A DNA stretch of 36,224 nucleotides, from contig CAMNQF010000036.1 of the NCBI GenBank assembly GCA_946548895.1, positions 1-36,224 on the forward strand, read 5' to 3'. Each line of letters opens with the position of its first letter. Within the stretch, counting starts at the first letter, position 1. The position numbers and the translations under genes are program-made. Below the pieces are notes generated by a model. That model saw only the letters and a program-made list of their open reading frames with translations, was not told the origin of the DNA and ran no database searches. This document shows positions 20,215 through 22,352 of this stretch, piece after piece. The stretch is from an uncultured bacterium. GTDB lineage: Bacteria > Bacillota > Clostridia > Oscillospirales > Oscillospiraceae.

Positions 20215-20691
20215 ATGGCCTTGACACAGGAGCAGCGCACCCAGGCGGTGGAGCGCTGGGGCGATATGGTATGGCGGCTGGCATTGGCCCGCACCGCCAG
20301 CGTCCCGGACGCGGAGGACGTGTTTCAGGAGGTTTTTCTGCGCTTTTTCCGCCATGAGGACCGGCTTCAGTCCGACGAGCACCGCAAGGCGTGGCTCATC
20401 CGCTGCACGGTGAACCGGGCCAAAAGCGTGCTGTCCTCCCCCTGGCGGCGGCGCACCGTGCCGCTGGAAACCGCCGAGGAGGTGGGCGTGGAGGACGACT
20501 ACCGCGAGGTATACAGCGCGGTGCTCTCCCTGCCCGGGAAATACCGGGCCGTCATCCACCTGCACTACTTCGAGGGCCTGTCGGTGGCCGAGATGGCCGC
20601 CATGCTGGAAGTGCCGGAGGGCACCGTCAAGTCCCAGCTCAGCCGGGGCCGTGCCCTCCTGCGGGATATGCTGAAGGAGGCAGAGCTATGA
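20215..20691 (+). CDS. ECF-type RNA polymerase sigma factor
   Basis: Alternative sigma factor of the extracytoplasmic-function group. The 158-residue protein has only regions 2 and 4. Region 2 includes DAEDVFQEVFLRFF and the HRKAWLIRCTVNRAKS helix. Region 4 includes LPGKYRAVIHLHYFEGLS and a helix-turn-helix ending EGTVKSQLSRGRALLRD. There is no region 1.1 or 3 and no extra C-terminal sensor domain. ATG at 20215 is preceded by GAGGAAAGAAGG. Its stop overlaps the next start as ATGA (20688-20691), so the sigma factor and the membrane-anchored serpin are translationally coupled. That position is the usual one for an anti-sigma gene. Confidence 0.93.
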   Translation: MALTQEQRTQAVERWGDMVWRLALARTASVPDAEDVFQEVFLRFFRHEDRLQSDEHRKAWLIRCTVNRAKSVLSSPWRRRTVPLETAEEVGVEDDYREVYSAVLSLPGKYRAVIHLHYFEGLSVAEMAAMLEVPEGTVKSQLSRGRALLRDMLKEAEL

Positions 20692-22352
20692 AGCGGTACA
20701 AGCAGGCAAACGAGGGCATCCACGCCCCCGAGGATTTGAAGGAAAAAGCCGCCCGGCCCGCCGGGAACCGCTCCGTCCCCCGCTGGACGGGGGCGGTGGC
20801 GGCGGTGCTGGCGGCGGCGCTGATTGGAGGGATTGCCATGTGGCCCGGCGGAAGCAGCGGCCCGGAGGGAGCTCCCATGCTCCTGACCGCCGGCGGGAAC
20901 GGCCCCGTTTCGGACAAACAGCCCCCCGCCGGCGGGGAGGGGCAGGACGGCCTCCTCCGGTCCGCGCCGGAGGAGGGGACTACCTGCGGCCCGGACGGCG
21001 TGCCCACGTCCTATGAGGTCCACGCCCTGGCCCTGGCCAGCGCCCCGGAGACGGCCCCCTACCCCAAGGACGAGGATTTCTACTCCGACATCGGCGACAG
21101 CGGGGACGCCTGGGAGAAGGCCAGCCGCGCCTATAACGAGGCTTACGACGCCTGGTCCGCGAGCCAGAAGGCCCTGCGTTCCGGCACGGACTACACCGGG
21201 CTGCTGGACGGCTTTATTTCCAGCACCACCACCCAATTCCTCTCCGGCGCGGACGGGGAAAACCGGGTGTACTCCCCCATCAACGTCTATATGGCGCTGT
21301 CCATGCTGGCGGAGACCGCCGGGGAAAACAGCCGGGCGCAGATTCTGGACCTGCTGGGGGTGGACTCCATCGAGGCGCTGCGCACCCGGGCGTATACCCT
21401 TTGGCGGGACAACTACCGGGATGACGGGGCAGTCACCTCCCTGCTGGCCAACTCCCTGTGGCTGCGGGACGGCATGACCTATAGCCAGAGCACCCTGGAC
21501 GCTCTGGCGGAGCACTACTATGCCTCCTCCTTCTCCGGCGCGATGGGCTCGGAGGAGTACAACCAGGCCCTGCGGGACTGGATCAACGCTCAGACCAACG
21601 GCCTGCTGGCGGAGCAGGCCCAGGGGCTGGAGATGGCCCCGGAGACGGTGCTGGCCCTGGCCTCCACCATCTACTTCAAGGCCGCCTGGGACAACGAGTT
21701 CAGCAAGGAGCTCACCGAAACGGATACTTTCCACGCCCCGTCCGGCGACGTGGACGCGGACTTCATGCGCAAGACCCTGGAGAGTAGCTTTTACTGGGGG
21801 GACAGCTTCACCGCCGTCCAGCTCCAGTTCCAGCGCGGGGGCTCCATGTGGCTGGTCCTCCCCGACGAGGAATGCTCTGTGGATGAGCTGCTCCAGAGCG
21901 GCGAGGCCATGGATTTCCTCCTCTCCCCCAAATACGACCAGTACGACGAAAACGGCAAGGTGACGCGGGAGGGCTGGACCGGGCAAAAATTCCTCAACAT
22001 CAACCTGTCCATGCCCAAGTTCGACGTGTCCTCCGACCTGGACCTGATCGCGGGCCTGAAAGAGCTGGGCGTCACCGATGTGTTCGACTACACCGTCTCC
22101 AACTTCGACCCCCTGGGGGCATCCACCGGCGACCCCATCTATGTATCCCAGGCCAAGCACGCCGCCCGGGTGAAGGTGGATGAGGAGGGCTGCGAGGCGG
22201 CGGCCTACACCGTCATCATGGCGGAGTGCGGCGCGGCCATGCCCCCCGACGAGGAAGTGGACTTTGTGCTGGACCGGCCCTTCCTGTTCGCCGTCACCGG
22301 GGACAGCGGCCTGCCCCTCTTTGTGGGCGCGGTAAACCAGCCCAACGGGTGA
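20688..22352 (+). CDS. membrane-anchored serpin, putative ECF anti-sigma/sensor
   Basis: A 554-residue single-pass membrane protein. Residues 1-32 are cytosolic and contain HAPEDLKEK, like N-termini of proteins encoded beside clostridial ECF sigma genes. Residues 33-52 form one hydrophobic helix. A linker rich in Gly, Pro and Glu follows, and from about residue 165 a complete serpin domain. Serpin marks are YSPINVYMALSMLAETAGEN, ASTIYFKAAWDNEF, the hinge EEGCEAAAY at residues 499-507, and FVLDRPFLFAV, which fits the serpin signature. The reactive loop (about 22182-22260) has small residues at the hinge as in inhibitory serpins. By alignment with alpha-1-antitrypsin, P1 is near Gly515, so an elastase- or subtilisin-like target is possible. 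No zinc anti-sigma motif is present. The anti-sigma role is inferred from coupling to the ECF gene. Confidence 0.88.
   Translation: MKRYKQANEGIHAPEDLKEKAARPAGNRSVPRWTGAVAAVLAAALIGGIAMWPGGSSGPEGAPMLLTAGGNGPVSDKQPPAGGEGQDGLLRSAPEEGTTCGPDGVPTSYEVHALALASAPETAPYPKDEDFYSDIGDSGDAWEKASRAYNEAYDAWSASQKALRSGTDYTGLLDGFISSTTTQFLSGADGENRVYSPINVYMALSMLAETAGENSRAQILDLLGVDSIEALRTRAYTLWRDNYRDDGAVTSLLANSLWLRDGMTYSQSTLDALAEHYYASSFSGAMGSEEYNQALRDWINAQTNGLLAEQAQGLEMAPETVLALASTIYFKAAWDNEFSKELTETDTFHAPSGDVDADFMRKTLESSFYWGDSFTAVQLQFQRGGSMWLVLPDEECSVDELLQSGEAMDFLLSPKYDQYDENGKVTREGWTGQKFLNINLSMPKFDVSSDLDLIAGLKELGVTDVFDYTVSNFDPLGASTGDPIYVSQAKHAARVKVDEEGCEAAAYTVIMAECGAAMPPDEEVDFVLDRPFLFAVTGDSGLPLFVGAVNQPNG

Follow-up and report, generated by a model that had tools for sequence, protein, structure and literature searches.

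What does a protease inhibitor do on the outside of the membrane when its gene overlaps that of a sigma factor? The question is raised by a stretch of 36,224 nucleotides from an uncultured bacterium of the Oscillospiraceae (GenBank assembly GCA_946548895.1, contig CAMNQF010000036.1), here called the window, in which a gene for a sigma factor of the extracytoplasmic function (ECF) type is followed by one for a membrane-anchored serpin of 554 residues. On balance, we think it probable that this protein is a serpin-headed anti-sigma factor, which would work in the manner of RsiV but sense proteases, and which would be refilled through its own promoter. A preliminary description of the locus, made from the sequence alone, had read the two genes as a sigma/anti-sigma pair. 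The pairing is now strongly supported by the gene overlap, by the company of the closest sigma factors and by a cytosolic N-terminus that follows the type of sigma factor; the anti-sigma function and the sensing of proteases stay proposals.

The sigma-serpin pair and its distribution

The two genes overlap as ATGA, as had been described, and the second protein has the expected parts: a cytosolic end of ~33 residues, a single membrane helix and a serpin domain (Table 1). The sigma factor is a short protein in which the Pfam scan found regions 2 and 4 only, as the ECF type requires. How often does this arrangement recur? Among 300 genomes of the family, 155 have a serpin match, and the matches listed, from which weaker places are absent, comprise 153 distinct serpin genes, the window's own and a few fragments among them. 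A sigma gene lies upstream within the search range in 40 of these 153, with a profile built on 7 paired sigma factors that distant ones could escape, and directly upstream in 36 (gaps of -14 to +27); the gap is exactly -4 in 23 family pairs. The other four sigma genes stand 616-651 bases off, before serpins with signal-peptide-like starts. All 36 directly paired serpins have a hydrophobic stretch that begins at residue 25-43, and a lipobox-like pattern occurs in 67 of the remaining 117 family serpins. The linkage in related genomes, on which the preliminary description had made its idea depend, is thus conserved.

Beyond this sample, 60 of 88 serpin open reading frames (ORFs) from 80 named GTDB loci are paired with a sigma gene, 49 of them at -4, in what is a biased set: the 80 best among 392 relatives, which an alignment of paired forms had retrieved. 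Carriers include Flavonifractor sp. An112, Flavonifractor sp. AGMB03687, Pseudoflavonifractor phocaeensis An507 and Cuneatibacter sp. NSJ-177, and in two paired serpins of the set the helix comes much later in the chain, after long repetitive stretches. A draw of 391 genomes from the class gave matches in 153. We inspected the 30 best-placed loci, three of which belong to the family (window included): a sigma gene is upstream in six, and outside the family in 4 of 27, from three family codes. No upstream sigma gene was found at the other 24, one of which (L296) is near a contig end. With such conservation in the family, in the biased GTDB set and at the best-scoring loci outside the family, mere chance adjacency of the two genes is refuted and has a negligible probability.

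Several variants of the arrangement were also seen. At two of the four sigma-paired loci outside the family (L301, L302), from another family of the class, the cytosolic N-terminus of the serpin is longer and of a third kind. At L144, L176 and L184, the sigma-paired serpin is directly followed by another membrane-anchored one, whose N-terminus is short. Elsewhere there are two serpins with nearly identical anti-sigma-like N-termini (L093), a run of two serpins (L119), a run of three lipoprotein-like serpins (L185) and two consecutive sigma-serpin pairs, the second with a degenerate hinge (L215).

The pairing can also be viewed from the sigma side, in genomes that overlap with those above, so that the two tests are not independent. 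At E up to 1e-35, the window's sigma factor matches 58 places in 300 genomes of the family, and the test used 30 of them, window included (the remaining 28 have E of 3.2e-41 and weaker). A serpin follows after all 12 of the best matches, that is, in the window and in 11 of 11 others (E up to 3.5e-50), and after none of the 18 more distant sigma genes examined (E from 5.9e-43). The partners of these 18 share the layout of the window protein. Ten of them were scanned. DUF4179 was matched in six (E up to 0.01; above its cut-off in one), RsgI_M in one (L264) and DUF4367, just under its cut-off, in one; the last two gave no match. The DUF4179 partners therefore place the window's sigma factor beside sigma factors with RsiV-like partners, on a branch of its own that goes with a serpin. 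The window's own genome has four other sigma genes (L146-L149) followed by overlapping or adjoining genes for single-helix proteins, which by eye have other extracellular parts.

The cytosolic N-terminus

Does the N-terminus behave as a segment that binds the sigma factor? Residues 1-33 are 58-82% identical to those of eight close relatives, and residues 54-109 of the linker 9-20%. The 90 distinct paired serpins have two types of N-terminus: type I, like YKxANxxIHAPxxLKE (19 serpins), and type II, approximately LFDAIGxIDDDLxERA (71 serpins). The type agrees with that of the sigma factor in all 90 pairs, with type I always accompanied by a close relative of the window's sigma factor (E up to 3e-55) and type II never (E from 9e-6). 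This would be the behavior expected of a sigma-binding segment, though inheritance of the intact pair would also yield it. We then used the type II N-terminus with its helix as a query in 150 genomes and found 21 places, 16 in serpins and five in proteins that were not recognized as such (L273, L277, L282, L284 and L285). A sigma gene lies upstream in 20 of the 21, including 5 of 5 of the latter. Hence, the N-terminus accompanies the sigma gene whatever the outside part. The type I profile also matched the N-termini of the distant partners described above (probability score 98, E 3e-13 for one comparison), with the membrane helix included in the match.

These data bear on a different explanation, in which the protein is a surface-anchored protease inhibitor merely co-expressed with the sigma factor and the N-terminus is only an anchor, without regulatory function. 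The serpin domain does have close relatives that are lipoproteins without a sigma gene, and the Pfam scan recognized no anti-sigma domain in the N-terminus (Serpin was the only family reported in the window protein, E up to 1). Paired and unpaired serpins are moreover interleaved on the tree, with 22 changes for the paired group, 14 of them forced by starred branches (FastTree, 175 rows), so that coupling to a sigma gene has been gained or lost repeatedly. Still, a simple anchor would not account for an N-terminus that is conserved while the linker varies freely, that matches the sigma type without exception and that stands behind a sigma gene in all five type II proteins not recognized as serpins; nor would it account for the consistent pairing of the closest sigma factors or the shared layout of the partners of their sisters. 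We regard this explanation as unlikely. Another idea, that serpins were swapped repeatedly between sigma types, arose from the five type changes that the tree needs (four without four long rows). It was dropped because a tree holding type I together fits equally well (p-AU 0.54).

From the reactive loop to the promoter

What could the serpin sense? The domain is of full length, and its structure prediction upholds the assignment to the serpins, which the preliminary description had made and on which its proposal hung. The inhibitory type of the hinge also held. With P15 Gly and small residues at P12-P10, the two features of the rule that we set for this analysis, the hinge EEGCEAAAYT passes; its P9 is Tyr, a bulkier residue than usual. 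Comparison with other paired serpins supports this picture, as 84 of 90 have an inhibitory-type hinge. Their P14 is mostly Val or Cys and their P9 Tyr or Phe, residues that depart from textbook hinges. At P1, placed by the usual P17-P1 spacing of serpins, 77 of 88 have A, G, S or T. Such small residues would fit elastase- or subtilisin-like proteases. The real scissile bond may lie elsewhere in the loop, a caution we take from the siropins, for which cleavage after Val by elastase and proteinase 3 is reported (PMC5127057). Alternatively, the protein could be a stress sensor that exploits the metastability of serpins, tipped to the latent state by heat, acid or a ligand and not by a protease. 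We give this little credit, about as little as the anchor, as the small-residue bait and the hinge are both kept and would seem needless in a pure stress sensor.

In the anti-sigma reading that we favor, the serpin would be the outside receptor of the protein encoded behind the ECF sigma gene. At rest, the ~33 N-terminal residues would hold the sigma factor at the membrane. A foreign elastase- or subtilisin-like protease that attacks the reactive loop would be trapped, and the serpin would snap to its loop-inserted state. This one-way change would alter the tail that joins the serpin to the helix and open it to regulated intramembrane proteolysis, with a first cut outside and a second one by a site-2 protease, by which the sigma factor would be freed. 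Matches to the site-2 protease family are present in the window's own genome. The freed sigma factor would then drive its own promoter and yield more sigma factor and more serpin, replacing the spent suicide inhibitor. Sequence comparison supports the pair, its conservation, the hinge of inhibitory type and the promoter-like element; we infer the chain of sigma binding, protease trigger, conformational coupling, cuts and autoregulation.

The tail is where such a signal would have to pass. The confidence score of the structure model (predicted local distance difference test, pLDDT) is under 50 over residues 51-102, in the linker before the tail. The model aligns with native tengpin from residue 109, and with most of the serpins listed only from residues 160-168. 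Tengpin has an N-terminal tail that is reported to stabilize the native state (PMC8233489), and for this reason the tail of the window protein could, by analogy and judging from the aligned ranges, carry the state of the serpin to the membrane. A bolder version can be offered only tentatively: the system may be an irreversible, self-refilling counter of proteases, in which one trapped protease would cause one loop insertion, an undocked tail, the cuts, the release of one sigma factor and a new sensor-inhibitor. Equally tentative is the suggestion that undocking would resemble the release of a tengpin-like tail, with a transmembrane signal that draws on the energy stored in serpin metastability. 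As to the first cut, a segment that resembles A-x-A-x-x-x-A-x-YPEMAPYP lies beyond the helix in many relatives. An AxA at the place that it has in RsiV occurs in 40 of 86 paired forms, mostly 9-15 residues beyond the helix, versus 3 of 28 lipoproteins.

The refilling step draws on a promoter-like element. In the looser form GCAAC-N15..20-T[AG]TT[AGT], the pattern precedes 14 of the 19 type I sigma genes, where plain shuffles would give 0.07, a count that is partly circular because the motif was first read from those same 19 genes, and it precedes none of 72 type II sigma genes (0.83 expected). The element would fit autoregulation, with no sign of further targets in the window's own genome. A wider regulon was considered and rejected: the exact pattern matched only its source, and with three mismatches there were five matches versus six in the control. 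The best additional match, a weak copy of the element (L232, G000:C13 1483-1512), stands ~370 bases ahead of a small lipoprotein-like gene; it is not convincing and may be due to chance.

Several observations weigh against the proposal, besides the lack of a recognized anti-sigma domain. The hinge rule is also passed by 63 of 76 unpaired lipoprotein serpins without a sigma gene; the hinge therefore shows a retained inhibitor and says nothing for signaling. In the window, the residues aligned with the AxA are V-H-A (111-113), ~60 residues from the helix and partly in a predicted strand, which is too far for an RsiV-like cut by signal peptidase. Of eight unpaired membrane forms that have the YP motif, six also have the AxA, which therefore tracks the membrane form more than the sigma gene. 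When any A-x-A up to 25 residues from the helix was counted, a looser measure, the figures were 56 of 90 paired serpins versus 33 of 76, and the contrast between paired forms and lipoproteins was not significant when corrected for kinship (7 pairs, median p 0.6). Hence, we do not take the AxA to prove cleavage by signal peptidase and keep it only as a hint. The tighter promoter pattern, GCAAC-N16..18-GGTRTTRT, matched only its source in the window's own genome, versus four matches for the reversed control. Finally, that genome has two trypsin/HtrA-family genes, which make a protease of the cell itself a possible target.

The last point leads to a further alternative, in which the serpin guards a site-1 protease: it would block an HtrA-like protease of the cell near its anti-sigma substrate, and a foreign protease would titrate the serpin and set that protease free. 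The two trypsin/HtrA-family genes and the matches to the site-2 protease family in the same genome are what such a circuit would use. Yet irreversible inhibition would make one guard per protease seem wasteful, and no protease family was matched among the eight neighboring proteins scanned; we find the guard less plausible still than the anchor or the stress sensor. A subtilisin of the cell itself was set aside as a target, as none was found in an assembly that is 96% complete, so that its absence is not proven.

Neighborhood, known systems and meaning

The pair lies downstream of genes for DNA polymerase III delta' and a ricT-like protein (18051-20087). Of 20 type I loci tested, 7 have these two genes ahead of the pair, and some of the other loci end too near to tell. 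Farther off, at 14345-15091, the window encodes a protein whose second half contains a P-II-like domain (PF00543, residues 141-236).

Table 1. Features of the sigma-serpin locus, in window coordinates
Feature	Position	Strand	Basis
Terminator-like hairpin 3' of the upstream ricT-like gene	20093..20120	+	By eye; absent from terminator scan listing
ECF-type promoter-like element GCAAC-N19-TGTTAT, conserved, likely autoregulatory	20131..20160	+	Motif shared upstream of type I sigma genes
ECF sigma factor, 158 amino acids (aa)	20215..20691	+	Pfam Sigma70_r2, Sigma70_r4_2
Membrane-anchored serpin, proposed anti-sigma factor, 554 aa	20688..22352	+	Sequence, Pfam, structure model
ATGA overlap of sigma stop and serpin start	20688..20691	+	Sequence
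Cytosolic N-terminus, residues 1-33 (RYKQANEGIHAPEDLKEK), proposed sigma-binding segment	20688..20786	+	Conservation, profile match, type match
Membrane helix, residues 34-51	20787..20840	+	Hydropathy; model helix 34-50
Variable extracellular linker, residues 52-110	20841..21017	+	Low identity; low pLDDT
Conserved tail VHALALASAPETAPYP, residues 111-126	21018..21065	+	Alignment to position of relatives' AxA motif; model strand 112-115
Serpin domain, residues 187-552	21246..22343	+	PF00079 E 6e-63; fold match
Inhibitory-type hinge P17-P8, residues 499-508, EEGCEAAAYT	22182..22211	+	Alignment, hinge rule
Bait part of reactive loop, residues 509-520, small residues near P1 (G515/A516)	22212..22247	+	Alignment, spacing
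Terminator-like hairpin beyond the two-gene unit	22431..22465	.	Scan; T tail on - strand (end of purL)

How does the pair compare with known systems? The closest parallel is sigma-V/RsiV of Bacillus subtilis and Clostridioides difficile (group ECF30), an ECF sigma factor with a single-pass anti-sigma factor whose outside domain binds a host defense enzyme. RsiV is described as the lysozyme receptor, with an AXA site behind its membrane helix where signal peptidase cuts it (PMC4183432), and its DUF4179 as the domain that contains and guards this site (PMC6066255). The short cytosolic N-terminus and the helix are shared, and so, in many relatives but not in the window, is an AxA a few residues beyond. 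The window protein differs in its outside domain, a serpin, and its trigger would be a covalently trapped protease instead of bound lysozyme. Anti-sigma factors with exchangeable extracellular sensor modules are known from sigma-I/RsgI of cellulolytic Clostridia, where these modules are reported to be carbohydrate-binding modules and glycoside hydrolases (PMC3413522); here, the sigma factor is of the ECF type, and the sensor would be a protease inhibitor. The Pfam scan of the window protein (E up to 1) found no match to DUF4179, DUF4163 or DUF3298, and no RsgI domain. With their defining domains not found, the protein stands outside the RsiV and RsgI families. Sequence comparison suggests a variant of the modular ECF/anti-sigma design that has a serpin for its head and that recurs in Oscillospiraceae and in some other Clostridia.

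Among serpins, those of the gut, such as the siropins and the serpin of Bifidobacterium longum, resemble the window protein in fold, in setting and in their elastase-type targets, which are reported for B. longum in PMC8012564. They are not described as anti-sigma factors in the abstracts and excerpts considered, whereas the serpin of the window is tied to its sigma factor by a membrane helix. The same source describes the serpin of Bifidobacterium breve as protease-inducible and autoregulated through a two-component system. The likeness lies in the induction by proteases and the autoregulation; the sensor there is a separate two-component system, whereas in the window the serpin itself would be the sensor. 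Tengpin is likewise a bacterial serpin with an N-terminal tail, and the excerpts do not describe it as a signaling protein. In the open-access literature, covered mostly by titles and the first lines of abstracts, no paper found joined a serpin with an anti-sigma role; the one on RsgI (PMC3413522) names serpin in a table note, and its anti-sigma passages concern RsgI.

If the proposal is true, bacterial serpins would gain a role beyond plain inhibition, and the conformational change of a serpin would act as a transmembrane signal in bacteria. Gut bacteria would then have a direct protease sensor. Such a sensor is of interest because elastase-like proteases are reported to rise in bowel inflammation (PMC8201313), and with it gut Clostridia would read the levels of host or microbial proteases.
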